Below are positions 6,815-55,586 of a DNA stretch of 64,000 bases, piece by piece (position 1 is the stretch's first letter; every line of letters starts with the position of its first letter). The notes under the pieces were generated by a model that made no database searches, was not told the origin of the DNA, and saw only the letters and a program-made list of their open reading frames with translations. The DNA is from a virus: IMG/VR virus record IMGVR_UViG_3300008111_000023, positions 1-64,000 of that record; one strand, given 5' to 3'. Both the position numbers and the translations under genes were made by a program.

Positions 6815-7252
6815 TTAGCCTTGATATAATACTTTCTTGTACAGTAAACCGGTTCTGTAGGCATATCCGATCGTGGTCCTGTTAAGGATACTACTGTACA
6901 ATTTGTGATTAAATTGTTCTCTAGCTTCTATGTAAGAGCATTGCGCCTTGGATGTACAGTAAAATAATATGTCTCTACGGAAATTTTCTTTGCCTAATTG
7001 TTCCACATCCTTGCTTAATTCAACGTTTGACCCGTAATAATCACGCCAATCGCTGTCTATTTTAGAACGTATCTTCTTTTTCTTCTTGTTGCCGTTTTTG
7101 AGTTTTACTGTTTTGTAGCTAGTTTTTGAGAATTTGGCTAGTTTTTTGCCTATGTATTTCCTGCCAGTAATATTATTAGTAATAAGATAAACGAATCCTA
7201 CGCAAGTTTCGGGTAGCTCTTCTATTAACTGATTTTCATAATACCATGACAT
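6815..7252 (-). CDS. GIY-YIG-like endonuclease domain protein
   Basis: 145 residues. Near the N-terminus it has GFVYLITN then GRKYIGKK, which correspond to the two halves of the GIY-YIG nuclease signature. A very basic stretch (NGNKKKKKIRSK) follows, then helical residues. It is last in an operon with gp46 and gp47 and directly follows the 76-residue gene. It could be a free-standing homing or seg-type endonuclease, or a domesticated nuclease helping DNA processing. The catalytic Arg and Glu of the family cannot be assigned confidently by eye. Confidence 0.55.
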   Translation of the reverse strand: MSWYYENQLIEELPETCVGFVYLITNNITGRKYIGKKLAKFSKTSYKTVKLKNGNKKKKKIRSKIDSDWRDYYGSNVELSKDVEQLGKENFRRDILFYCTSKAQCSYIEAREQFNHKLYSSILNRTTIGYAYRTGLLYKKVLYQG

Positions 7253-37164: not shown

Positions 37165-37175
37165 GGTAAACACAA

Positions 37176-39014: not shown

Positions 39015-39016
39015 TA

Positions 39017-39024
39017 GTTAAATA
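39017..39024 (+). promoter_or_regulatory. Possible late promoter for fibre 3
   Basis: GTTAAATA between fibres 2 and 3, followed by a strong GGGGAG ribosome-binding site and the ATG at 39041. Confidence 0.4.
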
Positions 39025-39040
39025 TGTAGGGGAGCGATAA

Positions 39041-40861
39041 ATGGCATACATCATAAACAAGTTTAGTGGCGGGCAATTAGTAGTGCTAGAAGACGGCACA
39101 CTAGATACTTCAACCAGTCTAGGATTGCTTGGCAGAAACTATACTGGGTATGGTGAAGTACAAAATGAAAATTTTGTATTCTTACTAGAGAATTTTGCCA
39201 ATGAAGATCCGCCTTCGCGGCCAATAACAGGTCAAGCATGGTATAATACATCGCTAGGATCACTTAATGTTTATAATGGTACAGCATGGACCCCAGTGGG
39301 CTCGGCAACAACCAGCAATACAGAACCCGAAGGATTTGACGGTGCTCTTTGGTATAAAGATACTACTGATCAATTGTTCATATTTGATTCGGGATTTTGG
39401 AAATTAATAGGACCAGAAGCAGTAGAAGGTTTTGGCGCTACTCGAATTAGAGCTAGAACAATATTAGACAATGCCAACATAGAACATGCAGTAGTAGAAA
39501 TTTTAGTAGACGGCACAACTTTTGTTATATGTGCCGACGAACCATTTACCATTGACGACAGCAACTTAGTTACAGGATTTACTAGTCTACAAGCAGGTAC
39601 AAATTTTTCATCTAATAGACCAGCAATTGGACCGTTAGTTGGTAATGCTTCTAGTGCATCTAGATTAGAACCAGGTAGACGAATTAACGGTGTCTTTTTT
39701 GATGGTCAAACAGATATTACAATTGGATCAAATACAACTAACACGTTAACAAGAGGCACATACTTAACAGGTGCAAATTTTAATGGATCGGCAGCAACAA
39801 CGTGGTCGGTAGATGCTAGTTCTGCTAACGTTATTGGTAAAATTGTTGCTAGAGACAGCGCAGGAGATTTTTCTGCAGGAACTATTACAGCTGATTTAGT
39901 GGGGAATGTCAGCGGTAATGTGACAGCAACTACCGGAACTAGTAGATTTATTAGGGTAGAAGCCAACGAGTTTGTTGGTGCTACATTATCAGGCAACGCA
40001 TTTTCGACCACAAAACTAGAAACAGCAAGAACAATTAATGGCGTACTATTTGATGGTACTGCAAATATCACAGTTCCTGCAAATGCAGAGACTCTTACAG
40101 GGGATAGGTTAGCTGTAGATATAAAGTATTCTAATCTAATTAGTGTAGGAACACTTCTTACTTTGCGAGTAAGCAATTATGCAACTTTTGGGCCTAGTCT
40201 TACTGAAAATGTAACAATTGGTTATTCGGATGCTACTAACCCTCTTCTAAGTAATGCAGGTTTTGTTAGCACAAATACTCCTTCACTCATATTATCTACA
40301 GGCGGTGCTGGTACCGGAGATGCGCTGACACTAGCCCTATGGAATAGTAATAAATCTTTGACTGAAGGAGGCGCTGCACAACCAGCACTAGTGCCATTAA
40401 ATGCAACGCCTCAAAACATAGGACACTCAAATTTTAAATGGAATAGAGTCTATGCTAATTATTTTGAAGGTATTGCAACTACAGCACAATATGCTGACCT
40501 TGCAGAAAAGTATGTAGCAGATGCAAATTACGAAGCAGGAACAGTGCTAGAATTTGGTGGTGAATTTGAAGTAACACTAGCAGAAGACGGTACAGCTAGA
40601 TTAGCTGGAGTAGTTTCCACTGATCCTGCATATTTAATGAATAGCAAGTGTGTAGGCAAACACACAGTTGCACTTGCATTACAAGGTCGTGTACCCTGTA
40701 AAGTAAGAGGTAAAATACAAAAGGGCGATATGTTGATGAGTGGCGGTGGCGGTTATGCCCGTAAAGCAACAAACCCGCAAATAGGTACGATTATAGGCAA
40801 GGCTCTAGCTGATTTTGATGGTGTAAGTGGAGTTATCGAAGTAGCAGTAGGCAGAGTTTAA
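39041..40861 (+). CDS. Tail fibre paralogue 3
   Basis: 606 residues with the shared N-terminal domain (LGRNYTGYGEVQNENFVFLL). The shaft carries two copies of the classical fibre repeat, RRINGVFFDGQTDI and RTINGVLFDGTANI. The C-terminal 130 residues (QYADLAEKYVADANYEAGTV, then GRVPCKVRGKIQKGD) form a domain shared with fibre 4, with a 28-base stretch identical at DNA level. It is a good candidate for a receptor-binding or chaperone-like tip. Confidence 0.75.
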   Translation: MAYIINKFSGGQLVVLEDGTLDTSTSLGLLGRNYTGYGEVQNENFVFLLENFANEDPPSRPITGQAWYNTSLGSLNVYNGTAWTPVGSATTSNTEPEGFDGALWYKDTTDQLFIFDSGFWKLIGPEAVEGFGATRIRARTILDNANIEHAVVEILVDGTTFVICADEPFTIDDSNLVTGFTSLQAGTNFSSNRPAIGPLVGNASSASRLEPGRRINGVFFDGQTDITIGSNTTNTLTRGTYLTGANFNGSAATTWSVDASSANVIGKIVARDSAGDFSAGTITADLVGNVSGNVTATTGTSRFIRVEANEFVGATLSGNAFSTTKLETARTINGVLFDGTANITVPANAETLTGDRLAVDIKYSNLISVGTLLTLRVSNYATFGPSLTENVTIGYSDATNPLLSNAGFVSTNTPSLILSTGGAGTGDALTLALWNSNKSLTEGGAAQPALVPLNATPQNIGHSNFKWNRVYANYFEGIATTAQYADLAEKYVADANYEAGTVLEFGGEFEVTLAEDGTARLAGVVSTDPAYLMNSKCVGKHTVALALQGRVPCKVRGKIQKGDMLMSGGGGYARKATNPQIGTIIGKALADFDGVSGVIEVAVGRV

Positions 40862-40874
40862 ATAGCTTTATAGC

Positions 40875-40882
40875 GATAAATA
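40875..40882 (+). promoter_or_regulatory. T4-type late promoter for fibre 4
   Basis: GATAAATA, 22 bases before the ATG at 40905. A GGAG ribosome-binding site lies at 40894-40897. Confidence 0.55.
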
Positions 40883-40904
40883 ATAGTTAGAACGGAGTAT
40901 ATCA

Positions 40905-42662
40905 ATGGCATATCAAGTAGACAAATTTAATGGAACTTTTCTAGTCTCAGTTGACGATGGAACCATTGATACCACCACTGATCTGCGTTTTGTAGGAAAA
41001 AATTACGCAGGCTACGGCGAAGTACAGAACGAAAATTTCTTGCATTTAATGGAAAATTTTGCAAATACTTCAGCACCACCCAAGGCAGTTGTTGGTCAAA
41101 TTTGGTATGATAGCGGCAATAAAAAAATACGTTTCTATGATGGCGCACGATTTAGAACAGCTAGTGGAGCTGAAGTAGGCCCAACTGCACCTTCCGGATT
41201 ACAGTCAGGCGATTTTTGGTTTGATACCAGCGCAGGACAACTATATACTTGGAACGGAACTGAGTTTGTATTAATTGGTCCAGAAACTCCTCCAGATCTA
41301 GGAGCAAGTGCAGTAGTTTCTCAAGTGGTAAAAGATACAATTGGCAACAATCATACCATTGTAAAGTTTCAAGCAGGTGGTGATGTAATATCAATAGTTA
41401 GTAAAGATGCATTTACACTAAACAGTACAATTAATCCTATTACAGGATTCACAACAATTAAGAAAGGTGTTAATCTAGTTAACACTAATGGTACAACAGG
41501 AGTTACATCCACAGATCATTATTTCTGGGGTACCGCAAGTAATGCAGCAAGGCTAGGTGGGTACCCAGCTTCAGAATATATTAGACTAGGTGAAGTATCG
41601 TTTGACAACGAAATTTCTTTTAAAGACACTGGTCTTACTATTGGCGATCAAAATGATCTGCGTATTAGAGTTGAAAACGGTGATGAACCAGTTATTGAAA
41701 ATCGATTAGGTAATACAATAACTCTAAGAATACGAGTAAGTGACAGCGATTTAAGAAACGTTGGAATTATCTCCTCAACAGGAATGATTCCCGGAACTAC
41801 TAATTTCTTTAATCTAGGATCTTCTACTTCTAGATGGGCCAATGTTTATTCTACATTGTTTACTGGGAATGTATTAGGCAATCTTACAGGTAATACATTG
41901 GGTATTCATAGAGGTAATTTGCTAGCCAACAATGAAGTTTTATCATTTAATGCAGATACTCAAACATTTATTGGTAGTTTTACCGGTACACTTACCGGAA
42001 ACGTAATTGGAAATATTACCGGAACATCTACCAATTCTTTAAGTTTAAACAGTCTAGTTGGCGAGCAAGGTGCCGTAGCAACTTCAGTTGCACTTAGAGA
42101 TGGTGCAGGAAATTTAACAGCAACTAGATTTATTGGAGTTACTGATAAATCCGATAGATTAAAGATTGATGACGTAGCAGTAGATACTGATCCAAATTAT
42201 CGATCTGCAAGAACAACTAAAACTGCAAACTCTATTGCAGCTAGAGACAGTTCTGGTAATTTATTAGCAAATACATTTGATGGTACTGCTACCGCAGCAC
42301 AATATGCTGACCTTGCAGAAAAATACCTTGCAGATAAACAATATGATGTTGGAACAGTGGTTGCAATTGGTGGAGAAAAAGAAGTTACAGCCGCTACATA
42401 TGGTGATAGAGCAATTGGCATAGTATCTGCCAATCCTGGATTTATGATGAACAAAGATTTAGAAGGCGGGACATATATAGCATTGAAGGGTCGAGTACCT
42501 GTAAAAGTACAAGGTACAGTTAAGAAAGGTGACAAACTTGTTCCGGCCCAAAATATGTACGGTGCTGCATCAGCTGCTAATAAATCTGACACAGATTATT
42601 TTGCTATTGCCCTCGAAGACCATCAGTCTGATTCGGGTGTTATAGAAGCATTGGTATTATAA
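40905..42662 (+). CDS. Tail fibre paralogue 4
   Basis: 585 residues. The N-terminal domain is the closest relative of fibre 3's (FVGKNYAGYGEVQNENFLHL). The shaft has TGNVxGN-type short repeats (GNVLGNLTGN, GTLTGNVIGNITGT). The C-terminal domain (QYADLAEKYLADKQYDVGTV, GRVPVKVQGTVKKGD) is the same as in fibre 3. The duplicated tip on different shafts suggests gene duplication followed by recombination. Confidence 0.75.
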   Translation: MAYQVDKFNGTFLVSVDDGTIDTTTDLRFVGKNYAGYGEVQNENFLHLMENFANTSAPPKAVVGQIWYDSGNKKIRFYDGARFRTASGAEVGPTAPSGLQSGDFWFDTSAGQLYTWNGTEFVLIGPETPPDLGASAVVSQVVKDTIGNNHTIVKFQAGGDVISIVSKDAFTLNSTINPITGFTTIKKGVNLVNTNGTTGVTSTDHYFWGTASNAARLGGYPASEYIRLGEVSFDNEISFKDTGLTIGDQNDLRIRVENGDEPVIENRLGNTITLRIRVSDSDLRNVGIISSTGMIPGTTNFFNLGSSTSRWANVYSTLFTGNVLGNLTGNTLGIHRGNLLANNEVLSFNADTQTFIGSFTGTLTGNVIGNITGTSTNSLSLNSLVGEQGAVATSVALRDGAGNLTATRFIGVTDKSDRLKIDDVAVDTDPNYRSARTTKTANSIAARDSSGNLLANTFDGTATAAQYADLAEKYLADKQYDVGTVVAIGGEKEVTAATYGDRAIGIVSANPGFMMNKDLEGGTYIALKGRVPVKVQGTVKKGDKLVPAQNMYGAASAANKSDTDYFAIALEDHQSDSGVIEALVL

Positions 42663-42671
42663 GGATAAATT

Positions 42672-43583
42672 ATGGCAATCGGTGATTTCATTTCCGCAAC
42701 AGATTACAACTCAATCAGAACTAAAATTATTAACGTCATGAGTACAGGATCCGGTAATTTTGGTTATGGTCAAACAACTTTTAGTTCTTTAGTATCTGCT
42801 GGAAATACTGTAACAAAAACACAATGGGATTCTCTTAGATACGATATCTACAATGCTATTCTACACCAAACTGGATCAGCAGCTTCGTTGGTGCAAGTGG
42901 CAGTGGGTGATGTTATTAGATTTGGTGCAAGCAATCCTAATTCTCAATATGACACTGTTGCTAATACCGCAGTTACCAATCGATTCAATTTAGGAACTGG
43001 CCAGTTTGTAACAGAAGCAATTAACAGCACATCATTTACTTCATCGTGGTATCAATCAGTTAGTGCTACAGCATCGGTTACATTTTCCACAGCAGAACAA
43101 GCAAGATTTTTCTTTAATGCAGGCGGAAAGATTCGATTTGCTAGCACCAGAACCGGCGGCAACGGTGAAGCACAAAATACTTCGTGGAGTAATTTATTAA
43201 GTTCTGCAGGAGCTCAATCATTTGTAGGCGGCCCCTCTGGAATTAATTTCTTTTCTTTAACTAGTGGTTTTCAGACTTTTGCTGAAATTTCAGGAAGCTC
43301 GGCATATTCTAATAACAAATGGCGTTTAGAAGCATCGTGTAATGTTGCAAGCAATACATTAGGAACCGCCAATGTTGTTAATTTTAGAATAACGTGGTTA
43401 GATGCATACACTGATCCAGTACCAGGAGGCGGAACACCGGCAATTCCTCCTGGAGATTTAGTTGACGGTACGCTTACTCTAACAGTTGATCAGGTTCGTC
43501 CTTCTGGATTTTTACAACCAAGTGGTACATTTACCACTGTAGGCCCATCGTCGTCTTCTTTGAGTGCAATCTCTGGTTCATAA
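42672..43583 (+). CDS. Virion structural protein downstream of fibres
   Basis: 303 residues. The N-terminus (ISATDYNSIRTKIINVMSTG) is helical; the rest is beta-rich, Ser/Thr/Gly-rich and without membrane segments. The C-terminus is low complexity (GPSSSSLSAISGS). Similar proteins occur as structural components near the fibre genes of marine T4-like phages. A weak late-type box, GATAAATT, lies at 42664-42671, just before the ATG. The role is probably in a fibre or baseplate appendage. Confidence 0.6.
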   Translation: MAIGDFISATDYNSIRTKIINVMSTGSGNFGYGQTTFSSLVSAGNTVTKTQWDSLRYDIYNAILHQTGSAASLVQVAVGDVIRFGASNPNSQYDTVANTAVTNRFNLGTGQFVTEAINSTSFTSSWYQSVSATASVTFSTAEQARFFFNAGGKIRFASTRTGGNGEAQNTSWSNLLSSAGAQSFVGGPSGINFFSLTSGFQTFAEISGSSAYSNNKWRLEASCNVASNTLGTANVVNFRITWLDAYTDPVPGGGTPAIPPGDLVDGTLTLTVDQVRPSGFLQPSGTFTTVGPSSSSLSAISGS

Positions 43584-43607: not shown

Positions 43608-43615
43608 TATAAATA
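43608..43615 (+). promoter_or_regulatory. T4-type late promoter for the 43641 operon
   Basis: Exact TATAAATA, followed by AGGAG at 43631-43635 and an ATG at 43641. It would drive the small protein and, by overlap, the glycosyltransferase-like genes behind it, making them late genes. Confidence 0.7.
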
Positions 43616-43640: not shown

Positions 43641-43991
43641 ATGGACGACCGTCTAAAAGCTGCCTTAGATTTTTCAAATTATAGACAAACCCTAGCAATT
43701 CAAAGAAAAACCCTTAAAGAAAAAATTGAGGGCAAATTGACTTACGGCCACTCCGGCGGTATATTTAAGATTGATAGAACACTATTAGTTTTTGTTCAAA
43801 TGCTAATTGATCAAGACAGAACAGAAAATGTTCCTCTAATTGATCAAAATGAAAATCCAATTTTAATTCCAGACCTACAAATATTTCGAGATGAAATTTT
43901 AGATAGGTATTTTACTGCCACCTACGAATATCACGAAGAATACGAAAAAATTAAATCTAGCAGGACCGTAGAAAAATTATTGAATATATGA
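43641..43991 (+). CDS. Small conserved protein heading the glycosyltransferase operon
   Basis: 116 residues, soluble and charged, predicted mostly helical. It contains KEKIEGKLTYGHSGGIFKID and ends EYEKIKSSRTVEKLLNI. I do not recognise a domain. It has its own late promoter and a good ribosome-binding site, and its stop overlaps the next start (ATGA). Confidence 0.6.
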   Translation: MDDRLKAALDFSNYRQTLAIQRKTLKEKIEGKLTYGHSGGIFKIDRTLLVFVQMLIDQDRTENVPLIDQNENPILIPDLQIFRDEILDRYFTATYEYHEEYEKIKSSRTVEKLLNI

Positions 43992-44848
43992 CTAAAGGCG
44001 TATTAATTTTTGCTCATAATGGCCCAGAAGTAGATTACGGTGTAATGGGTATAATTTCTGGCGGACTAGCAAAAAAACATTTGGGATTACCAGTCAGTTT
44101 AATAACAGACAAATGGACTATTGCTTGGTTAAAAGAATCAGGGATGTATGCTAGAGCCGAGTCTATTTTTGATAAGATTATTGAAATTGAAAAGCCTAGA
44201 ACAAAAAATACAAGAAAACTGCATGATGGTTTCTACAGCCAGACAATTCCCTTTGTAAATTCAAATAGATTTTCAGTTTGGGATTTAAGTCCTTACGATC
44301 AAACTTTGCTAATTGATAGTGATTATCTAATTTTTTCTAACAAACTAAATGAGTACTGGAACACAGATAGTAGCGTAATGTTAGGACATTCTATGAATGA
44401 CATAACGGGTGACCGTAGTGGTATATTAGATCAACGTGTAAGTGAAACTGGGATTCATATGTTTTGGGCTACCACAGTAATGTTTACTAAAAATGAAGAA
44501 AGCAGATTCTTTTTTAAATTAGTTGATTATATTAAAGACAATTACAGATATTATGCCGACCTATTTAGATTTGATCCAAGACAATATCGAAATGATATTT
44601 CATTCAGCATTGCTAAACATATCATGAACGGGTTTGAAACAGAATTTATTTACACTCTTCCTCCTATTCTAACGGTGTTTGACAAAGATATTTTGCATGA
44701 TGTAATCGAAAATCGATTGACATTTCTAATTGAAAAACCACTCAATTGCGGAGATTTCTGGGCTGCAACTACACAAGGATCTGATGTTCATATTATGAAC
44801 AAACAAAGTATTATTAGAAATAAAGAAAAATTACTGGAGTTAATATGA
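43988..44848 (+). CDS. Putative GT-A fold glycosyltransferase 1
   Basis: 286 residues. The N-terminus (GVLIFAHNGPEVDYGVMGII) is followed by a nucleotide-binding-like fold and, near residue 105, LLIDSDYLIF, a D-x-D pattern of the kind that binds the metal and sugar-nucleotide in GT-A enzymes. Near the C-terminus are CGDFWAATTQGSDVHIMN. The arrangement recalls family 8-like transferases, but overall identity is not recognisable by eye. Overlaps both neighbours by four bases. Confidence 0.5.
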   Translation: MTKGVLIFAHNGPEVDYGVMGIISGGLAKKHLGLPVSLITDKWTIAWLKESGMYARAESIFDKIIEIEKPRTKNTRKLHDGFYSQTIPFVNSNRFSVWDLSPYDQTLLIDSDYLIFSNKLNEYWNTDSSVMLGHSMNDITGDRSGILDQRVSETGIHMFWATTVMFTKNEESRFFFKLVDYIKDNYRYYADLFRFDPRQYRNDISFSIAKHIMNGFETEFIYTLPPILTVFDKDILHDVIENRLTFLIEKPLNCGDFWAATTQGSDVHIMNKQSIIRNKEKLLELI

Positions 44849-45687
44849 ACTTTGGTTATTTAATTGTAGTTGCTTCAAATAAAGATATAGACTATCTTAA
44901 ATTAGCCTATGCTCTTGCATTAAGTATTAAAAATACTCAGAAGCCAGGATATGATAACGTTGCTTTAGTAATTGACAATCCTCAACTAGTTGACAATTTA
45001 AAAAGCCCTTGGGTCTTTGATCATGTTATTGCTTGGGATAAGGAAACGTATTGGGATGGTCGTAGTTGGATGGATCAATTATCTCCTTTTGAAAATACAG
45101 TATGTCTTGATGCAGATATGATTTTCCTTAGAGATCATAGTCACTGGATTGATTACTTTATTGAAAATTGTGAATTATATATTCCCTCAAAGGCATTGAC
45201 CTATAGAGGCGAAACAATTACAAATGATTTTTATAGAAAAACATTTACAAAGAACGGTCTTCCTAATTTATATTCTATGTTTACTTTTTTTAAACAGGGA
45301 TCTGAAATTGCAACAGAATTTTTTAATCTAGGTAGATATATTATAAAAAATCCTTTGGAGTTTAGTAATTTATATCTTACAAAACATAAACCAAAAGTTG
45401 TTGGAACAGATGAAGCGTTTGCCTTGAGTGCAAAGATTTTAGATATAAGTGATATTGTAAGTTATGATCTAGCGTTTCCTAACATTGTTCATATGAAACC
45501 TATGGTTCAAAATTGGTCATGGACTGCTGATAAAGTCACTGAACATGCTGGTTTTTATTTTAATATCCAAGGAAAATTAAAAATAGGAAATTATCAGCAA
45601 CATAATATTGTGCATTATGTTGAAAAAGATCTAGTTAATGACGAAATAGTTAGTATGTTAGAGGAGATTGCATGGAACAAGAACTAA
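44845..45687 (+). CDS. Putative GT-A fold glycosyltransferase 2
   Basis: 280 residues. The N-terminus YLIVVASNKDIDYLKLAYAL is typical of glycosyltransferases that bind a nucleotide sugar, and TVCLDADMIFLRD near residue 90 supplies a D-x-D motif. Later KVVGTDEAFALSAKILD fits an acceptor-side acidic loop, and a histidine near IVHMKP could be the last metal ligand. It resembles GT 1 in layout, so the two may be distant paralogues. Donor and acceptor are unknown. Confidence 0.55.
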   Translation: MNFGYLIVVASNKDIDYLKLAYALALSIKNTQKPGYDNVALVIDNPQLVDNLKSPWVFDHVIAWDKETYWDGRSWMDQLSPFENTVCLDADMIFLRDHSHWIDYFIENCELYIPSKALTYRGETITNDFYRKTFTKNGLPNLYSMFTFFKQGSEIATEFFNLGRYIIKNPLEFSNLYLTKHKPKVVGTDEAFALSAKILDISDIVSYDLAFPNIVHMKPMVQNWSWTADKVTEHAGFYFNIQGKLKIGNYQQHNIVHYVEKDLVNDEIVSMLEEIAWNKN

Positions 45688-46265
45688 TGGATTTTGACGA
45701 GTGGATCAAATTACCAGTCAATCAAACCGTTGAATACTATGCAACATTTAAAGATGACGGATCTTTAATTGGAATATATCCTTCTCATGCGGTATTTGAT
45801 AATACAAATAAGATAAAAATTGATGAAGAAATTGCTACAGCAGTGTCCACAGGTGCGGAAAATTTATTTTCTTATAGGGTTGATCTACCAACTAAGAAAT
45901 TAGTTAAATTAAACAAATTTTCCACTCATAGTCTAATAAAGATTGATGATATCTTGCATAGAATAATAGATAAAAAGTGGTCAAATATGCAAGATCCTGA
46001 TATCACAATTTCACATGATACAAAAAATAGTACATTAATATTTTCAATGAGCAACAAATACTCAAATAATATTATTTGGGACGGTGCAACTGAAATGATT
46101 TTTTTAGTAACTGATTACAACGACCCCAATGTCCTCCTTCATATGTTAAGCATTAGGGCAGGCGATATTACAGAAAATACAAAATTATTTACATTAGATT
46201 TGCCAAATAGATTTAGTGTTTACACAAGACGAATTTTTGACAAATATATATTTGAAACAATATGA
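45672..46265 (+). CDS. Unrecognised protein within glycosyltransferase operon
   Basis: 197 residues, soluble, with no motif I recognise. The start at 45672 has AGGAG six bases upstream, inside the end of the previous gene (16-base overlap), so it is real and coupled. It contains beta-rich segments (NTVEYYATF-like start, WDGATEMIFLVTDYNDPN). A role supporting the neighbouring transferases, or as an acceptor or structural protein, is inference from position. Confidence 0.5.
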   Translation: MEQELMDFDEWIKLPVNQTVEYYATFKDDGSLIGIYPSHAVFDNTNKIKIDEEIATAVSTGAENLFSYRVDLPTKKLVKLNKFSTHSLIKIDDILHRIIDKKWSNMQDPDITISHDTKNSTLIFSMSNKYSNNIIWDGATEMIFLVTDYNDPNVLLHMLSIRAGDITENTKLFTLDLPNRFSVYTRRIFDKYIFETI

Positions 46266-47173
46266 AAACAATAGAACTTGACATTGTATTTTTAAGTTAT
46301 GACGAGCCCAATGCAGATAAGCATTATGCTGATTTATGCAATAAACTTCCTTGGGCTAAACGAGTTCACGGAGTGAAGGGTAGTGATGCTGCACATAAGG
46401 CAGCAGCTGAGTTAAGTGAAACTGAATGGGTTATCACGGTTGACGCTGATAATATAGTTAATCCTAAATTCTTTAATCTAGACATTGATACAAGTAATCC
46501 TAAGATACAGGTATATAGCTGGTTAGGAAAAAACAAACTTAATGGCTTACTTTACGGTAATGGCGGACTTAAAATATGGAAACGAGATTTTATTCTCAAT
46601 ATGAAAACTCATGAAGCTAGTGAAAGTGATCGTGCTCAAGTAGACTTTTGTTGGGAAGATGGTTATCGTCAATTTAAAGAATGTTATAGTGATACTGATA
46701 TTACCGGAAGTCCTTTTCAAGCATGGAGAGCAGGATTTCGTGAAGGCGTTAAGATGACCTTGCTTGACGGAATTAAAGTGGCACCACAAGAGATTAGTGA
46801 ACGTGTTTGGTGGCACAATTTGCATAGATTACGTATGTGGTCAACAGTTGGTGCTCATGAAGAAAATGGACTTTATGCCATATATGGTGCTAGATTAGGC
46901 ACTTGGTTAGCAAACTGTACCGACTGGAATTATGTAGAGGTTCGAGACTTTGAAATCCTTAAAGGTATTTGGAATCAATATGGCCGCCCATTTGAAGAAT
47001 TAGGCGGTAATGGTCTAGATGAAGAAATTAAATCATTAGGTGAAAAAATTAAATTAGAACTAGGTTTTGATTATCCCTATCTAGATAGTCAACAGAGCAA
47101 ATATACTTTAGATTTGTACGAAGAAACTATCAAATTAACAAATACATATATGAGGACCACTGATGGTCTATGA
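46262..47173 (+). CDS. Putative glycosyltransferase with VDAD motif
   Basis: 303 residues. It starts DIVFLSYDEPNADKHYADLC, then AKRVHGVKG and WVITVDADNIVNPKF (about residues 56-70), a GT-A-like core with a D-x-D. The same core occurs at the C-terminus of the next gene, so the two are paralogues. The second half (WWHNLHRLRMWSTVGAHEEN) probably binds the acceptor. It overlaps the following gene by eleven bases. Confidence 0.6.
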   Translation: MKTIELDIVFLSYDEPNADKHYADLCNKLPWAKRVHGVKGSDAAHKAAAELSETEWVITVDADNIVNPKFFNLDIDTSNPKIQVYSWLGKNKLNGLLYGNGGLKIWKRDFILNMKTHEASESDRAQVDFCWEDGYRQFKECYSDTDITGSPFQAWRAGFREGVKMTLLDGIKVAPQEISERVWWHNLHRLRMWSTVGAHEENGLYAIYGARLGTWLANCTDWNYVEVRDFEILKGIWNQYGRPFEELGGNGLDEEIKSLGEKIKLELGFDYPYLDSQQSKYTLDLYEETIKLTNTYMRTTDGL

Positions 47174-48848
47174 TATTTTTTATGTAAGTAAAAATATTAT
47201 TGATGAACAAAATTGGAAACAATTTCGTTCTAAATTTCCATCTTCTCAAAAAATTGATAATGTAAAATCGTTTGATGACATTAAAAAGAAAGCATTTACA
47301 AAATTCTTTTGGGTTGTATGGGATGATTTAAACATTGTTGATACTTTTAAATTTGATTACAAAGTTTCTACATGGGATCAAGATTATATTCATGTGTGGT
47401 TAAATGGTGAAAACTACGACGGTGTTGTATTGTTTTCAAAAAAGTCAGTTCCCTCGGAAAAAGAATTTCAACATAGATTTTATGTTAACAAAAAAGAAAT
47501 CGATATAGTAGCTAGTAAACCTAAAAAATACCCTATTTTTATTATTAGCAATTATGCAGAATATCAATCTGCATTAAAAAATTCACCTTTAACAATGTTT
47601 TGGGTAGTATGGCCAAACATTGAAATAATTAATGATCAAATTTTTGAAACTTACTTTAGTCACCATAATTCCTATGATCGAAATGAAAATCATGTGTTTA
47701 AAAATATTTCTAACGATCAGGAATCGTTTGTTAACGGTGTTGTGTTATTTTCTACAAATAAGCCAGTATCTAAGAAAGAGATTGAACATAGATTTTTTAT
47801 AGATAAAAAAGAACACAATCTAGTGGCCAGCAAATATAAACCGTACGACAAATTTGTAATCGATACGTTTAGCGATTACGAACATGCTCTTAACACAGCT
47901 GATACAGATATGTTTTGGGCAATTCCTCCGGAAGTTGAACCTGTACCAGATTTTAAATTTGATCTTCAATTTCCATACCAAAATAAGTATGAGCTCAGTA
48001 TAAATCACGTCTTTAAAAATATTGATGTTGAAGAAATTAAGTACAACGGTATAATGTTATTATCGAAGAAAAGACCTATTTCTGCAAGAGAAGTTGAATA
48101 TAGATATTTGATTGAAAAGAAAGAATATGACCTTGTGGCAAGTAAATTAAAATTATACGATATTGTGTTTATATCTTATAACGAACCTAATGCAGATGAA
48201 AATTTTGCTAACTTAATTGATCGATTTCCAAGAGCTAAACGTGTACACGGCGTAAAAGGTATTCACCAAGCACATATTGCAGCCGCAAAATTAGCAACAA
48301 CTCCAATGTTTTGGGTAGTAGACGGTGATGCAATAGTAGAAGATGATTTTCAATTTGACCTACTACTACCTAAACACGATACAGATATTGTTCATGTTTG
48401 GTTAAGCAAAAATCCTATCAACGGATTAACATACGGCTATGGTGGTGTTAAATTATTGCCTAAAAACTTAACTATTAATATGGAAATGACTAGTGTTGAC
48501 ATGACTATGGCAATTAGCAAAAAATTTAAAGTTATAAAAGAAGTTAGTAATCTAACAGTTTTTAATACAGATCCGTTCAATACTTGGAAATCTGCGTTTA
48601 GAGAGTGTGTAAAATTAGCCAGCCGTCCTGTTGATTCTGGATATCAAGAAGAAACTGAAGATAGATTAATTACTTGGTGCAGTGTTGGATCTGATAAACT
48701 TTATGGAGAATATAGTATAGCAGGAGCTCGAGCTGGAAAACAGTACGGGCTATTGAATATTGCCGATGCTAACCAGTTAAGAAAAATTAATGATTTTGAA
48801 TGGTTGCAAAATCAATTTAATTTATTGCAACCCTTAGTAGAAAAATAA
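47163..48848 (+). CDS. Multi-repeat glycosyltransferase-like protein
   Basis: 561 residues. The C-terminal third (from about 330: DIVFISYNEPNADENF, AKRVHGVKG, MFWVVDGDAIV) is a paralogue of the preceding protein with an intact D-x-D (DGDA near 386). In front are three tandem units of about 80-100 residues, near 47-118, 143-224 and 249-328. Each starts FFWVVWDDL, MFWVVWPNI or MFWAIPPEV and ends with K-K-E-x-x-x-VASK. They look like copies of the catalytic core strand in which the D-x-D is lost. AGGA six bases before the ATG supports this start. Confidence 0.6.
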   Translation: MVYDIFYVSKNIIDEQNWKQFRSKFPSSQKIDNVKSFDDIKKKAFTKFFWVVWDDLNIVDTFKFDYKVSTWDQDYIHVWLNGENYDGVVLFSKKSVPSEKEFQHRFYVNKKEIDIVASKPKKYPIFIISNYAEYQSALKNSPLTMFWVVWPNIEIINDQIFETYFSHHNSYDRNENHVFKNISNDQESFVNGVVLFSTNKPVSKKEIEHRFFIDKKEHNLVASKYKPYDKFVIDTFSDYEHALNTADTDMFWAIPPEVEPVPDFKFDLQFPYQNKYELSINHVFKNIDVEEIKYNGIMLLSKKRPISAREVEYRYLIEKKEYDLVASKLKLYDIVFISYNEPNADENFANLIDRFPRAKRVHGVKGIHQAHIAAAKLATTPMFWVVDGDAIVEDDFQFDLLLPKHDTDIVHVWLSKNPINGLTYGYGGVKLLPKNLTINMEMTSVDMTMAISKKFKVIKEVSNLTVFNTDPFNTWKSAFRECVKLASRPVDSGYQEETEDRLITWCSVGSDKLYGEYSIAGARAGKQYGLLNIADANQLRKINDFEWLQNQFNLLQPLVEK

Positions 48849-48859
48849 TAATCTATACT

Positions 48860-48878
48860 AGATGCTTAATTGGCATCT
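48860..48878. terminator. Hairpin between convergent operons
   Basis: AGATGC (48860-48865) pairs with GCATCT (48873-48878) around a seven-base loop, exactly where the plus-strand glycosyltransferase operon and the minus-strand radical SAM operon meet. There is no T-run, so termination here is only suggested. It overlaps the stop codon of the SGNH gene. Confidence 0.35.
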
Positions 48879-49729
48879 CTATCATCCGGACTTTTACCCC
48901 ATCCGAAATGTTCTCTTGCTAAATCTCTAGCATATTCAGCATGACCGGGCGGAAGTACGTGCCCACACGCAGTCATTTGTTCGAACGCTCCTTTATTGAA
49001 CCATCGATCATTGATCTTATCAAATTCTAATAAATCAAACCAAAGCATTCGAAGCCATTGATTTTTAGAGTTATTAACTATTTCTTTGTATTGCCAAAAT
49101 TCACCTACGGTGTTTAAGAAAATAGGATCTCTTCCAATTCTCCGCTTAACATAATTTTTAATTTGTAAACATTCTTTTAGATAATCAATAAGCAATTCTT
49201 CATCACTGAGTGTTGTCCAAATAGCTTCAAACAATTTTTTATGTTTACTTTCATATCCTCGATAATGAAATCCCGGAATAGATGATTTAACCCAATTAAA
49301 AATTTTCCCAATATCTTGTGTATCTTCGTGATACCAACCTAATCTTCCAATGCTTGTTAAGCCTATGAAAACATAATCTGGCAAGTCTGCTCGACTTCTT
49401 AATGATTCAAGATAGGCAATAGTTCTAGTTGATATGCCCGTCATACATGATCCGCCAATGGCCCCATTAACTACATTAACAGTGTCATTAACTAGCATAG
49501 TATCAACTAGTTCACCTAATAATGTAGCCCACACATATTTCTTATTACTAAGTTGCCAATGATTATGTAAATCAAGATTTCTATCTAGCATTGCATGCCT
49601 TTTGTTACACCATGCTACGTCAAATTCTACGTCGCAAGAATGATGCCCTGGATACAAATCTGGAAAAACTTCTGGATCAGACAATCCGTCGCCAGCAGTA
49701 AAACTATCCCCATTTACATAAATTTTCAT
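48866..49729 (-). CDS. SGNH/GDSL hydrolase-like protein
   Basis: 287 residues. It opens MKIYVNGDSFTAGDG, a clear block I with the nucleophile Ser9. Block II fits NGAIGGS near residue 90. The block III Asn (usually GxND) is not evident (FIGLTSIGR), and block V reads CGHVLPPGH, giving a His but not the usual Asp three residues before it. SGNH proteins remove or transfer acyl groups, often on polysaccharides. Last gene of the radical SAM operon, overlapping its upstream neighbour by four bases. Confidence 0.6.
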   Translation of the reverse strand: MKIYVNGDSFTAGDGLSDPEVFPDLYPGHHSCDVEFDVAWCNKRHAMLDRNLDLHNHWQLSNKKYVWATLLGELVDTMLVNDTVNVVNGAIGGSCMTGISTRTIAYLESLRSRADLPDYVFIGLTSIGRLGWYHEDTQDIGKIFNWVKSSIPGFHYRGYESKHKKLFEAIWTTLSDEELLIDYLKECLQIKNYVKRRIGRDPIFLNTVGEFWQYKEIVNNSKNQWLRMLWFDLLEFDKINDRWFNKGAFEQMTACGHVLPPGHAEYARDLAREHFGWGKSPDDRDAN

Positions 49730-50526
49730 AATTCAAATCCTACTTCTAATCCTCGAGATAAATTTTGATGCATGAGTTGTTTAATTTCCCATTTATTCTT
49801 TTTAAAGTTTCCTAAAATAATCCACGGTGGCATAACTTGTAAATTATTTTGATTGCACCACTCTATATATGCTGGATTAGGAAGAATACCTTTATTTAAT
49901 TGTGGATTAAATACATATTCAAACCTAGCCGAAATTGTTTTGTAATTGCTAGTTTCTTCATCAACTGAACTTCCAGTAATCCATTGGTCATACTGATGTT
50001 TTCCTAAATCGTCAAATCTTAAAATTAGATCGTGTTGTGAGTATTCGCAATCTTCCGGCTGTATTTTAATATCAATATTTTCTAAATATGCTCCGTTTGT
50101 ATTAGTAAAATAAACAGAATAGTAATATTCTAAAGAATGAATGTATAAATTAATATTTTGCCAGGATTTCACAAAGCTGGGATAGTTTTGTTTCGTATTG
50201 TCTCCGTTGACTATATTTTTTAATCTGTCAGTGTACAATACCCATTTTTTATGTGACGCATTGAGCCATTGTTGATCAATACCAACAATTTTATTAAACA
50301 TGATTTGAGGTAGATTTTTTTCTACAGCAAACTTATTAACTATATCAATTGCAGCATTTAGATTATTAATAGTCTCATTAGAACGAGTTATAAACGAAGT
50401 ATCTCTAGCAAAATAACTCATATTCATTTTTTTAGAAAAAATGCTTTCAAACCAAACAGACGCTATGGGTGTATTGTTAGGCTCTAATTCTAAATAGTCG
50501 CCTGATTTTAAAAAAATAAATTTCAT
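49726..50526 (-). CDS. Unrecognised 266-residue protein in radical SAM operon
   Basis: 266 residues, soluble, acidic to neutral, rich in Asn, Tyr and Trp. No catalytic motif or cysteine cluster is visible. The C-terminal half is the most ordered-looking (LILRFDDLGKHQYDQWITG, FEYVFNPQLNKGILPNPAY, MPPWIILGNF). It is fused by ATGA overlaps to a radical SAM gene before it and the SGNH gene after it. It could be an accessory subunit or a substrate of the radical SAM enzymes. Confidence 0.5.
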   Translation of the reverse strand: MKFIFLKSGDYLELEPNNTPIASVWFESIFSKKMNMSYFARDTSFITRSNETINNLNAAIDIVNKFAVEKNLPQIMFNKIVGIDQQWLNASHKKWVLYTDRLKNIVNGDNTKQNYPSFVKSWQNINLYIHSLEYYYSVYFTNTNGAYLENIDIKIQPEDCEYSQHDLILRFDDLGKHQYDQWITGSSVDEETSNYKTISARFEYVFNPQLNKGILPNPAYIEWCNQNNLQVMPPWIILGNFKKNKWEIKQLMHQNLSRGLEVGFEL

Positions 50527-51731
50527 TTGAGTTTTGGAAAAATACTATTTAAATCTTCGTTACGCACAGTATCAATTTTTTCTGTAAAATATTTAAAGTA
50601 TTCCCACTGTCCGTTGGCTTCTGGAGTGTAGTAATGGCCATAGAGATCTTCCCAATTGCGTCGATCAATAATACCGTGTAATGAATTAATTTTATCCTGT
50701 CGCATTTGTTTAGGTAGTATATTAGCCGATAGATAGTCTGGGCTTTGAACATGATTTAATCCTACTCTAATGCGTATTTTATTGTTGGACAAATATCTTT
50801 CTAATTCGTCAACATACATAAAATTATAGACGCTGACAGTTTGAGTTACACGATAAATGAATTTGTAATTATTTAAAAATAATTTTAAGTTATTAATGGT
50901 TAAATCCCAATCGCTTAAACTTCTAATGTAAGTGTTGCGTTCTCCAACATCATCGATGCTGAAACTAATATGTACTTCTTTAAATTTAGTCAATAGATCC
51001 AATGCTGGAGTAATCTTATCCCATTTGTAATTTAAATTTGTGTGATAATGTATAGCAATATCAGTTTTGCCTTCACGTACTAATTTTTCTAGTAGTTTAA
51101 AGTGAGTAGGTACAAGAAATGGTTCGCCGCCACTTATATGTATTTGTTCTAGATTAGGAGCAAATTCTGTTAACCTGTTGTAAAAAGATTCATCGTCTAC
51201 CCAATCAAAACTAAAATCAGGATTACTTTTAATCCAATGATAACCACTAGCTAATTTGACTGTATCTTTTAATTTATAGTAATCTTGAATCCAACTTGTG
51301 CTAGAGTCTGCATTACAGCTTCGACATTTTAAATTACAAAAATTTCCTAATCGTAATTCAATGTGACGAAGATCTGTCTTAATAGAGCCGTCGGCAGCGG
51401 TTAGTGCAGCGTGATCTAAATTACGATTGGTTTCCTGTTGGCGCTTACTCTTTCCGCCAGCCTGTTCAATTTGATGGCATCCCTCACATGCAGTCGGTAC
51501 CTTGCCTGCTAACATGTCTAGTCTAATAGTTTTATAATTATCGCAGTTAATAATCTCTGGTATATTACTATTCATAACTGTGACAGTTTTAGTTTTATCT
51601 TCACTAACCCTGTTCCAGCTATGTCCGTTGCCCTTACCTGAATGTTTGGCAACACAACAAATTGTACAATTGCCTTGTGGAAACACACTCAGATGTATCC
51701 AAGGAAAATCACAAATAAATTTATCACTCAT
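50523..51731 (-). CDS. Radical SAM protein with N-terminal twitch-like region (A1)
   Basis: 402 residues. The radical SAM motif is C132-x3-C136-x2-C139 (NFCNLKCRSC), followed by the SAM-binding HISGGEPF near 196. The N-terminus has a second cysteine set: C7, GNCTICC (C22, C25, C26) and CEGC (C82, C85), resembling a SPASM/twitch auxiliary cluster domain placed before the core instead of after it. Such enzymes modify peptides or sugars by radical chemistry. It is most similar in layout to the next gene upstream (51728-52942). Confidence 0.85.
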   Translation of the reverse strand: MSDKFICDFPWIHLSVFPQGNCTICCVAKHSGKGNGHSWNRVSEDKTKTVTVMNSNIPEIINCDNYKTIRLDMLAGKVPTACEGCHQIEQAGGKSKRQQETNRNLDHAALTAADGSIKTDLRHIELRLGNFCNLKCRSCNADSSTSWIQDYYKLKDTVKLASGYHWIKSNPDFSFDWVDDESFYNRLTEFAPNLEQIHISGGEPFLVPTHFKLLEKLVREGKTDIAIHYHTNLNYKWDKITPALDLLTKFKEVHISFSIDDVGERNTYIRSLSDWDLTINNLKLFLNNYKFIYRVTQTVSVYNFMYVDELERYLSNNKIRIRVGLNHVQSPDYLSANILPKQMRQDKINSLHGIIDRRNWEDLYGHYYTPEANGQWEYFKYFTEKIDTVRNEDLNSIFPKLK

Positions 51732-52942
51732 AATGTATCAAACCATTCGGCTAATTCTGGTACAGCCGTTCTTATATCTTCTTTTCTAATACGGTCTAAC
51801 TTTATAGTATCTCTTTTAAATTTTTGTTGTAGTTCTAATGTTTTTTCTAGAGAAATTGTTGAGTTTAAATAAAATTTAACTTCGTTATATAAGTTAGCTA
51901 GCCATCGACTTTCTTCTTCAGTTACAATTGAAGTTATTTTTTCTAAATGTTCATCTAGTTGTATTCTTACTTTATTTTTTAACTCTTCAGGTAGTATTGA
52001 AGACATATAATGTTGCGGCCAGTTAACATGACTTACTAGTACTTTTCTAGTTGACATTTTTAATTCTATTAGTTTATCAATTAATTTAGTAAAATTAAAA
52101 ACAGTGAGAATATTTATAGTAGTTGATACTACATAACCAACATTCGATTGCGATAAACGGACTAAGTTTTCTTCCACTCTAGGCCAATCGGTTCCAGATC
52201 TACTGTACTCTGCATTTTCATCAATGCCGTCGATACTTGCAAAAATTCTAACATCTTTAAATCGTTTCCAAATATCAACTAGATCGTAATCTTTATACTT
52301 GATAGTACTCATGTTGGTGTTGTAACGCAAAAACACATCATATCGTTCTTTGGCAATTAACTTATCTAATATCTGATAGTGTTCAGCCATAAGTAATGGT
52401 TCACCGCCAGCAAAGTAAATCTCTTCAACATCATCAATAAACTGATCAACGTATTTCATTAAATCAGTTCCGTAGTATGAACTATCAAGAAATTTTATCT
52501 TAGTTTTCTTTTCCTCAGGAGTGAAGTCGTCAAACCAAGAACTGCTACTACCATGTCCGCACATACGACATTTAAAGTTACAGATATTACTAAATCTAAA
52601 ATCCCAAAAAATTATTTCAAATGTTTCGTAGGTACCGTCGGGTAATGTATTACTTTTAGCTTTTTCGATATGATGGCTGAATCTTTCAGTAACCGCCATT
52701 CTATAGCTTACACCCCCGCTGTCTTCTTTTTTAGTACAGGTTAGGCATCCTTCTGGAATTTTATTTTCTAAAAAGCTTCTACGCATAGATTTAGTATGTT
52801 CGTTATTCCATATTTCTTCTAGTGTAGTATCTTTTAAGTTTCCAAAGTCTTGCCCAAGATACGCACAACAAGGCTTAACACGACCGTTAGGTTCTGTATT
52901 AAGATGTATCCACGGCACTATACAAAATTTATCTTCGCTCAT
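51728..52942 (-). CDS. Radical SAM protein with N-terminal twitch-like region (A2)
   Basis: 404 residues. Radical SAM cluster cysteines at C121, C125 and C128 (NICNFKCRMC), then IYFAGGEPLL. The N-terminus (FCIVPWIHLNTEPNG, KPCC at 25-26, GNLKDTTLEEIWNN, GCLTC at 66-69) reads like a SPASM/twitch domain moved to the front; the family known as N-terminal twitch radical SAM proteins has this design. Overlaps its neighbours by four bases. Substrate unknown. Confidence 0.85.
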   Translation of the reverse strand: MSEDKFCIVPWIHLNTEPNGRVKPCCAYLGQDFGNLKDTTLEEIWNNEHTKSMRRSFLENKIPEGCLTCTKKEDSGGVSYRMAVTERFSHHIEKAKSNTLPDGTYETFEIIFWDFRFSNICNFKCRMCGHGSSSSWFDDFTPEEKKTKIKFLDSSYYGTDLMKYVDQFIDDVEEIYFAGGEPLLMAEHYQILDKLIAKERYDVFLRYNTNMSTIKYKDYDLVDIWKRFKDVRIFASIDGIDENAEYSRSGTDWPRVEENLVRLSQSNVGYVVSTTINILTVFNFTKLIDKLIELKMSTRKVLVSHVNWPQHYMSSILPEELKNKVRIQLDEHLEKITSIVTEEESRWLANLYNEVKFYLNSTISLEKTLELQQKFKRDTIKLDRIRKEDIRTAVPELAEWFDTL

Positions 52943-54267
52943 ATTGTGTTAAACCATTCTATAAATTCTGTTGGGAATACACTAGCTAATGCGATATTTT
53001 TTCTATCGGCATATTGTTGTGTAAAACTTTTTAAATCGTGCACCTTATTGGTTTGGCTGTCGGTATCTTCTTGACTGCGATCAACGTTTCGAAGATATAC
53101 AGCTATTCTCTCTATTTGATTACTTTCAGCAGGACTTAACCCAACAACATTACTTAGCCAAGTTTCAATTTTGTCTGCTTGTGCTTGTTTCAAATTATCT
53201 GGCAATACATTTAAATTTTGAAAACTAGGAAAACGCACTAGATTAAGACTCATATGGAACTGATGCCCGCCAAATTGTTTACGTAGTTCTAACATGTCTG
53301 TCATAAACTCTGTTATGGTCCAAATGCTTAGGGCACTAATAGTCATCATAACATGTATCATGTTATATTTCCCTTCTTTGGCAAACTGTATTAAATTATT
53401 ACGCCATACTGTATAATCTAATCCATGACGAACAAACTCGCCGTGGGCACCGTATCCTTCGCCGCTAGTATACAGATCAAATTTCTTAAACTTTTTACTA
53501 GCATTGATTAGTTGATGTAGTTTTACCTGATCCATTACTAGATTACTGTTAACGGCAAAATCAAAATTTGTACCTTCACATTCATCTAACAGTTTCCAAA
53601 ATGAAGGACTACGGGTAGGTTCGCCGCCTGTAATTCTTAGTTCTTGTAAATTGTTTTTAAGGCTAGCATGAAACCATTTAAAAAATGCTTCAATGTAGGG
53701 ATTGTTTTCATTTTTAATTCCGTAAGGCAAAGCATGTTCTCCAGCATTTTGAAATGCTCCACCGCCAGCTGTCTTTAATTCAATATATGGTCCGTTAACT
53801 TTAATATCGCTAGCCCAGGTAGAACTAAACTCTGCGTTACAATAACTACAACTTAAATTACATAAATTATCAAAACTAATTTCTAAAGTTTTTGGATCAA
53901 TATCTGATCCAGGATCTAATTTAGCTAGTTGAAGTATTTCATCTTCTTCGTAAATCCTAGTCTTATAAACTCGATCACTGTATACATCCGGTGCCGCATT
54001 ATCCTCAACAGTCCAGCAATAAGCGCACTCGTCACACCGCTTACCAATTAGCATTTCTAATCGACGATCTTTCTTAAAGGTTGTATTATGTAGTGCGGAT
54101 GGATTACGACTGATCTCGGCTATAGGTATTGTATGCGCCGGCGGCAAATGACAACTAGCTGTTCTTCCGTTGCCTAACCATATAGTAGCGTTATACCATT
54201 TTGCGGCACAAAAACTAGGACTTATTTCATTAATAATTTCTATTGTGCGTTTTACGTTTGTTGGCAT
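52939..54267 (-). CDS. Radical SAM protein with N-terminal cysteine-rich region (B1)
   Basis: 442 residues. Radical SAM cysteines C136, C140 and C143 (NLCNLSCSYC), followed by LRITGGEPTRS. The N-terminus has C20 (SFCAAKWY), C39 (SCHLPPAH) and CDECAYCW (C78, C81, C84), a pattern shared with the next gene upstream but different from the A pair. The tail (KSFTQQYADRKN) is helical. Paired with B2 by a 16-base overlap. Confidence 0.85.
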   Translation of the reverse strand: MPTNVKRTIEIINEISPSFCAAKWYNATIWLGNGRTASCHLPPAHTIPIAEISRNPSALHNTTFKKDRRLEMLIGKRCDECAYCWTVEDNAAPDVYSDRVYKTRIYEEDEILQLAKLDPGSDIDPKTLEISFDNLCNLSCSYCNAEFSSTWASDIKVNGPYIELKTAGGGAFQNAGEHALPYGIKNENNPYIEAFFKWFHASLKNNLQELRITGGEPTRSPSFWKLLDECEGTNFDFAVNSNLVMDQVKLHQLINASKKFKKFDLYTSGEGYGAHGEFVRHGLDYTVWRNNLIQFAKEGKYNMIHVMMTISALSIWTITEFMTDMLELRKQFGGHQFHMSLNLVRFPSFQNLNVLPDNLKQAQADKIETWLSNVVGLSPAESNQIERIAVYLRNVDRSQEDTDSQTNKVHDLKSFTQQYADRKNIALASVFPTEFIEWFNTI

Positions 54268-55586
54268 AATTGATAAAATTTTGTAAGTGCTGGAAAGATT
54301 TTATTAAAGTCAGTTCCTCGTCTAATATCATATTCAGTGATAAATGCTGCAAAGTCTTTTCTTAATTGTAATTCTTTGCTGTCAGTACCGTTCATATAGT
54401 CAAGCATACGACGCAACTGATCTATTTCACTTTCTGATAAATCAGGTCGTTCTATAATCAATGCTGTTACGTCTTTTGTAAATTGTTGTTTACTAGAAGG
54501 GTCTAAAATAGTCAATGACAAGAATTCTGGATACCGTAAAAAGTTAGTCATAAACTGAACTTTGTTAAATGTAGCATTCTTGTTATAATGCTTACGTAGG
54601 TCTAGCAAGTATCGTATAAAATCACAATAGGTTGTAATACTAGTTAAGTTAACAGTGGTCATTACAGCAACAATGTTATTGGTATTATCTAAAACTTTTT
54701 CCAAGTTTTTAGTCCATGCTGAATAATCTAATCCGTATCTAATATATTCAGCAGGAGCACCTACTGCTTCGCCGCTAGTAAATATTTGTACTTCTTTAAT
54801 ATTTTTAGATATACTATTGAGCTTAGTGATCATTCGATCAACTAGTTCGTCTGGAATGCCTAAATTGGTATTAATAGCAAATACTAAATCAGATTTAGGA
54901 TTAGCTTCGATGTCGTCAAGCATACGCCATACGTCTTTGCTTAACAGCGGCTCGCCGCCTGTAAGTCTAAGCGTTTCAAGTTTTTGGTATAGTTCCGGCC
55001 ACCATTTCCAAAAAGCATCTACATAAGGATTAGGGTCACTATGTTTGATAGGCATTTTACCTACCTCTTTAAACCATCCAAATCCGTTATACTTTTGACT
55101 AGTTGGATATTCCCCGTGCTTGGCAATTTCGTCATACCACTGGCTACTAAGGTCTGGGCTACAGTAAGCACATTTAAAATTACAAACATTACTAAAACTA
55201 ATTTCAACGTATGTAGGTTCTACGTCGGCTGTTTTATTTTTAACAACCTCGCCAATGTGAGGATACGCCCACGATGTAGCACTTTTATAACTTCTATCAC
55301 TAATGTGGCCGCTGTCCTCAGCAGTCCAACAATAGTCACACTCGCTCGGCCGAACACCGTCGAGCATTTTTTGCATTTGTTCTTTTTTATAATTAGTATT
55401 ATGTAGAGCCTTGTAATTTTGCTCTAATTCGTCTAGCGGAATCTTATGTGGGGAAGGATGATGGCAGCTGTGATTAAACCCATTTTGAAGATACAATGTT
55501 AATTGATACCATTTGGCTAAACAAAAGCTAGGACTAACAGCATTTAAGATTGGAATAACTTTTTGAAATTTTTCGTGTTCACTCAT
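54252..55586 (-). CDS. Radical SAM protein with N-terminal cysteine-rich region (B2)
   Basis: 444 residues, first gene of the operon. Radical SAM cysteines C135, C139 and C142 (NVCNFKCAYC) and LRLTGGEPLLS. N-terminal C22 (SFCLAKWY), C41 (SCHHPSPH) and CDYCW (C83, C86) mirror B1. No Shine-Dalgarno sequence is visible before the ATG. Instead a six-codon upstream reading frame (ATG at 55603) ends with a TGA overlapping the start, and a TATAAT lies at 55612-55607 without a good -35 box. Confidence 0.85.
   Translation of the reverse strand: MSEHEKFQKVIPILNAVSPSFCLAKWYQLTLYLQNGFNHSCHHPSPHKIPLDELEQNYKALHNTNYKKEQMQKMLDGVRPSECDYCWTAEDSGHISDRSYKSATSWAYPHIGEVVKNKTADVEPTYVEISFSNVCNFKCAYCSPDLSSQWYDEIAKHGEYPTSQKYNGFGWFKEVGKMPIKHSDPNPYVDAFWKWWPELYQKLETLRLTGGEPLLSKDVWRMLDDIEANPKSDLVFAINTNLGIPDELVDRMITKLNSISKNIKEVQIFTSGEAVGAPAEYIRYGLDYSAWTKNLEKVLDNTNNIVAVMTTVNLTSITTYCDFIRYLLDLRKHYNKNATFNKVQFMTNFLRYPEFLSLTILDPSSKQQFTKDVTALIIERPDLSESEIDQLRRMLDYMNGTDSKELQLRKDFAAFITEYDIRRGTDFNKIFPALTKFYQLCQQT

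Follow-up and report, generated by a model that had tools for sequence, protein, structure and literature searches.

Four N-terminal twitch radical SAM enzymes encoded beside the tail-fibre and glycosyltransferase-like genes of a phage, with relatives in predatory bacteria

Introduction

What does a phage gain from four radical SAM enzymes encoded one after the other? The question is raised by a stretch of viral DNA corresponding to positions 1 to 64,000 of a 76,182-bp IMG/VR record (hereafter, the window), for which a preliminary description had proposed an operon of four such enzymes together with a protein of 266 residues and an SGNH-like protein. Here, we examine the class to which the enzymes belong, the genes that accompany their relatives in phages and bacteria, and the substrate on which they might act.

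Results

ORF calling recovered the proposed operon at 48866-55586 as a run of six minus-strand genes, end to end from 55586 down to 48866, and the described fusion by overlaps proved correct: B1 and B2 share 16 bp, while the remaining four junctions share 4 bp each. Specifically, the run begins with B1 (54252-55586; 444 aa) and its paralogue B2 (52939-54267; 442 aa), continues with two enzymes of a second subfamily, A1 (51728-52942; 404 aa) and A2 (50523-51731; 402 aa), and ends with p266 (49726-50526; 266 aa) and an SGNH-like hydrolase/acyltransferase (48866-49729; 287 aa) with conserved Ser9, Asn88 and His257.

The operon is inverted relative to a plus-strand block of fibre and putative sugar-transfer genes. 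Four tail-fibre paralogues of one family (35092-42662), with a Collar domain in the first and a Peptidase_G2 chaperone in the fourth, are followed by F5 (42672-43583), a conserved protein with family members in 49 loci, and by a cassette headed by the conserved F6 (43641-43991; 116 aa; family in 52 loci). Then come two GTa genes (43988-44848 and 44845-45687) coding for GT8/glycogenin-like glycosyltransferases (profile comparison with glycogenin, best 1.4e-7), the conserved cassette protein F8 (45672-46265; family in 48 loci), and two GTb genes (46262-47173 and 47163-48848), whose DxD-bearing products, with an invariant D61xD63, are putatively glycosyltransferase-like. The second GTb carries about three degenerate N-terminal repeats of a GTb-like domain ahead of the full domain, and its N-terminal length differs between relatives. 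Elsewhere in the window, a single ORF of 4574 aa (20685-34409) occupies the structural block upstream of the fibre genes, and a 145-aa ORF (6815-7252) matches homing-endonuclease PHROGs, its best match bearing the name NAD synthetase, which was probably transferred.

A search against radical SAM profiles placed all four enzymes in a named family, that of the NCBIfam model NF033640 (twitch domain-containing radical SAM protein, N_Twi_rSAM; curated cut-off 170 bits), to which no substrate has been assigned. B1, B2, A1 and A2 reach 348, 276, 379 and 332 bits, respectively, over nearly the full model length, and no other protein of the 76,182-bp record scores above the cut-off. The motifs agree with the scores, in line with the preliminary class assignment: each enzyme has the CxxxCxxC and GGEP motifs and, ahead of the core, a set of four cysteines (C..C..CxxC), a pattern present in 149 of 161 family representatives. 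The twitch cysteines 22, 41, 83 and 86 and the core cysteines 135, 139 and 142 are invariant in 44 B1 homologues. Pfam SPASM gave an end-to-end match on the N-terminal residues 7-70 of A1 (4e-12) and a weak one on A2, and did not match B1 or B2. Thus, an auxiliary Fe-S cluster domain is predicted from the Pfam match in A1 and from the invariant cysteines in B1; in the four enzymes it lies N-terminal to the core, and not C-terminal to it as in SPASM/twitch enzymes.

The assignment to a characterised pathway was rejected, as had been anticipated, since the equivalog models for MoaA, NirJ, PqqE and W_rSAM scored far below their cut-offs; likewise, neither QueE nor any other equivalog claimed one of the four above cut-off. 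In the literature searched, nothing was found on the NF033640-type family by name. When the AF2 model of B1 (mean pLDDT 94) was compared with known structures by Foldseek, SkfB and SuiB ranked at the top, followed by NifB, viperin and BlsE, an enzyme of blasticidin S biosynthesis that was among the matches below 1e-3; proteins of Campylobacter phages appeared only as remote fold matches. The TM of these matches is only about 0.35, so the fold cannot discriminate between possible substrates of B1.

A tree of the 161 representatives set A and B on opposite sides of a single branch with SH-aLRT support of 100, so that the proposed distinction of two subfamilies is real. B1 and B2 form sister groups, both of which contain phage and Bdellovibrionota rows, and their duplication thus predates the separation of these phage and bacterial lineages. 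A1 and A2, instead, fall into different A groups. The idea of two duplicated pairs therefore holds for B1/B2, as an old duplication, and fails for A1/A2, which are not each other's closest relatives. Changes between phage and bacterial labels number at least seven by the starred branches and 16 in all, indicating that the genes moved between phages and bacteria. As the tree is a quick build with many long branches, placements within A are unsure.

B1 had no match among 50,697 phage records, and at least 197 relatives were found in viral contigs, some of them 280-385 kb long. Radical SAM rows beside fibre and sugar-transfer genes are carried by large phages from lakes and oceans. We compared 41 distinct B1 loci of uncultured phages (<92% identity), each of limited length. 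B1 is the constant member, whereas B2 occurs in at least 21 of them, an A-type enzyme in at least 15 and p266 itself in at least 5; among the radical SAM matches listed per locus, there is one in 19 of the 41 loci and nine in two. In 18 viral records searched whole, matches to the NF033640 family range from 1 to 11 per record. With the size of the set varying this widely, an obligate set of four was rejected. The order B1-B2-A1-A2-p266-SGNH is kept in close relatives only, where the operon has one of two orientations: it faces the glycosyltransferase cassette, which is the arrangement of the window, or it follows the cassette in the same direction. L020 and L094 show the latter, with the fibre-associated genes, the glycosyltransferase genes and all four radical SAM genes on a single strand.

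Full-length N-terminal twitch relatives are also encoded by the Vibrio phages KVP40, QD01 and K566, near queC-like and nadV genes. The KVP40 and QD01 proteins fall under the NF033640 cut-off, and only two of those of K566 pass it. QD01 is a cultured phage propagated on Vibrio natriegens Vmax. The cultured K566 carries several N-twitch radical SAM genes (locus L104, 11974-18710), which adjoin a gene related to the PF00534 glycosyltransferase gene of KVP40, with a PagP gene close by.

The fetched flanks of the distinct B1 loci contain glycan genes in 39 of 41 cases (a raw count) and fibre genes in 23. In 33 fetched loci the gene immediately 5' of B1 is GTb, separated from it by -44 to +16 bp; in 13 others it is a GT7+LamG gene (near-duplicates included in both counts). 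Among the further genes around B1 in other phages are GT7 galactosyltransferase, GT2, UDP-sugar dehydrogenase, dTDP-4-dehydrorhamnose epimerase, carbamoyltransferase and methyltransferase genes, as well as a weak match to sugar nucleotidyltransferases. Searches of GTb against PDB, Pfam and profiles lent no support to a glycosyltransferase fold, and we dropped GTb as a proven glycosyltransferase.

The T4 late-promoter core, TATAAATA, occurs three times in the window, below the shuffled count. Two occurrences are intergenic: one lies 41 bp upstream of the baseplate-hub gene, the other on the plus strand at 43608-43615, 33 bp upstream of F6. Among relatives, the motif is found 20-45 bp before F6 at 7 of 25 sites, compared with 18 of 1034 other genes (p 6e-7); with a degenerate first base, the figures become 15 of 25 and 43 of 1034. 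The phage encodes a T4-type late sigma factor. No copy of the motif precedes B1 or the radical SAM operon in the window, and scans of the window for sigma-70 promoters and terminators gave fewer matches than shuffled sequences.

The two remaining genes of the operon also have relatives. The 266-residue protein, taken at first for an unknown, is no orphan: the profile of a Bdellovibrionota family adjoining B1 retrieves p266 homologues (5e-7), and the two families align by hhalign over 233 columns (1.6e-5), so that p266 is a divergent member of a radical SAM partner family common to phages and Bdellovibrionota. Members also follow the radical SAM arrays of three other loci (L030, L031 and L041); with the member from L155 as query, no close relative was found in viral contigs. 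His92, Asn126, His130, Glu133 and Gly175 are invariant in the family, and Asn89 and Asp189 nearly so. In the AF2 model, which is moderate (mean pLDDT 75), these residues sit for the most part on two neighbouring helices and may thus form a metal or active site. A fold assignment was rejected, the model being only moderate and the best Foldseek E value 0.47; the weak matches include ferritin-like proteins. The profile of the SGNH-like protein reaches further SGNH-like families, some relatives matching Lipase_GDSL below cut-off or DUF6071.

When GTDB genomes were scanned with the B1 alignment, 77 loci were recovered; almost all belong to Bdellovibrionota, a group of predatory bacteria, and some are in contigs of 0.3-1.4 Mb. 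Four of them (L170, L171, L190 and L194) share the run B1-PqqD-Peptidase_S74 (PqqD 4e-16, S74 9e-17), and the clade with this run also carries ABC-2 transporter, GT1, DegT aminotransferase and carbamoyltransferase genes, the carbamoyltransferase family being common to Bdellovibrionota and phage loci. The PqqD family is present in 14 of the 77 bacterial loci, mostly in one clade of the B1 tree; PqqD/RRE relatives were searched for in the phage loci and found absent. S74 is a chaperone/protease of phage fibres and of the MAT fibres of Bdellovibrio (PMC10769870). The literature searched contained nothing joining Bdellovibrio, radical SAM enzymes and fibres.

Stand-alone Peptidase_S74 proteins of 142-169 aa are encoded at L170:3439-3888, L190:11776-12207 and in 11 more Bdellovibrionota loci, in the vicinity of genes for PqqD and N-twitch radical SAM enzymes. 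They share a conserved N-terminal stretch, FGGI.EFNL.EIE...YLDVFAGSD, before the start of S74, and could be either RiPP-like precursors or trans-acting fibre chaperones. Apart from these, a few contigs from MAGs of Neomarinimicrobiota, Verrucomicrobia and others, namely L146, L147, L193 and possibly L139, L182 and L195, contain phage-like blocks with B1, in the first three a fibre-F5-F6-GTa-GTb-B1 block; they are probably phage contigs binned into MAGs.

Discussion

On the basis of the gene coupling and of the promoter, we favour the reading that the four enzymes tailor a surface glycan as part of a phage-encoded, late-expressed module linked to the tail fibres, and we give it a probability of just under one half (0.48). 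According to this model, the GT8-like and GTb proteins would assemble a glycan, its probable acceptor being the tail fibres of the same gene block. B1, translationally coupled to GTb in relatives, would use the 5'-deoxyadenosyl radical to abstract a hydrogen at a ring carbon, the substrate being a sugar or an NDP-sugar, and the N-terminal twitch cluster would accept the second electron. In the manner of BtrN, the sugar would end up in the keto form or epimerised. B2, A1 and A2 might introduce further modifications, with p266 as a putative helper, and the SGNH protein could put an acyl group on or take it off. The glycogenin match of GTa, the sugar-related neighbours in other phages, the single-strand arrangement of L020 and L094, the oxidation of an aminocyclitol by BtrN and the presence of BlsE among the fold matches also speak in favour of this reading. 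Against glycan tailoring count the absence of fold and profile support for GTb, as well as the inverted orientation of the radical SAM operon in the window and its lack of a TATAAATA of its own. The best fold matches of the B1 model, the peptide maturases SkfB and SuiB, would also argue against it.

The same fold neighbours favour the main competing explanation, namely that the enzymes modify amino acids of the tail fibres directly, as RiPP maturases do, by epimerisation, cross-linking, thioether formation or oxidation, which would stiffen or diversify the receptor-binding parts. Fibre genes adjoin B1 loci in phages, and the B1-PqqD-Peptidase_S74 run of Bdellovibrionota, where B1 stands beside a fibre chaperone/protease, suggests that the substrate is a peptide or a protein. 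Yet PqqD is limited to a minority of the bacterial loci, the phage loci are devoid of a PqqD/RRE relative, and the phage neighbourhoods consist chiefly of glycan genes; we consider direct protein modification rather unlikely, albeit ahead of the two explanations that follow. The enzymes might instead remodel the host surface, altering LPS or capsule and so excluding other phages, as put forward for pelagimyophage glycosyltransferases (PMC7029224), and sugar-nucleotide enzymes do occur in related loci. Exclusion, however, would be expected early in infection, whereas the cassette often bears a late-promoter motif and the genes are located within the fibre block, making this explanation improbable. 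Finally, general metabolic or nucleotide-modifying enzymes could have landed in a variable island by chance: other phage radical SAM proteins are QueE-like, and the Vibrio phage relatives have queC-like and nadV genes as neighbours. Against this, B1 recurrently occupies a position coupled to glycosyltransferase-like genes, and QueE, MoaA and other equivalog models failed to reach their cut-offs; we consider this last explanation very improbable.

Whether the acceptor is protein or glycan, the bacterial relatives allow a broader and more tentative proposal, to which we assign a chance clearly below even: phages and predatory bacteria might share a radical pathway that covalently tailors the fibres recognising host or prey, with A- and B-type enzymes acting in series together with a partner of the p266 family. 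If so, radical chemistry would mature virion fibres or their glycans, a new kind of post-translational modification of virions; a large uncharacterised radical SAM subfamily would acquire a function, and host recognition by phages would be linked to Bdellovibrio-like prey recognition through common enzymes. The cultured Vibrio phages with full-length relatives, such as QD01, offer a route to testing. As far as the literature was checked, four points are new: B1 is coupled to glycosyltransferase-like genes, a late-promoter motif is enriched, p266 belongs to a partner family, and predatory bacteria are linked to these phages. The enzyme family already had a name.

Published phage systems offer precedents for the operon. 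In pelagimyophages, the available part of the description (PMC7029224) reports a host recognition cluster, a single variable island between VrlC and gp14, comprising tail fibres, glycosyltransferases (GT8 being the most represented) and radical SAM cassettes. The window has the fibres and the glycosyltransferase genes, while VrlC and gp14 were not identified in it; that part of the description, in turn, does not resolve the twitch type, the subfamilies, the coupling to glycosyltransferase-like genes, p266 or the relatives in predators. The Campylobacter phages CP220 and CPt10 encode 11-12 radical SAM proteins (PMC2853527), a multiplicity within one myovirus that resembles the present case, but theirs are associated with amidinotransferase genes. 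At the level of the enzymes, all four are members of NF033640 by cut-off, a family entry with neither substrate nor pathway attached. Known twitch enzymes either oxidise or rearrange small molecules (MoaA and BtrN, which oxidises an aminocyclitol) or modify peptides (SkfB), and the authors of the SkfB work noted that sequence networks predict function poorly in its subfamily. RiPP maturases of the sactipeptide type have an RRE/PqqD domain or partner, and the phage loci have neither. BtrN, MoaA and SkfB combine, as the phage enzymes do, a radical SAM core with one auxiliary cluster domain; their twitch domain is C-terminal, whereas in the four phage enzymes it is N-terminal.
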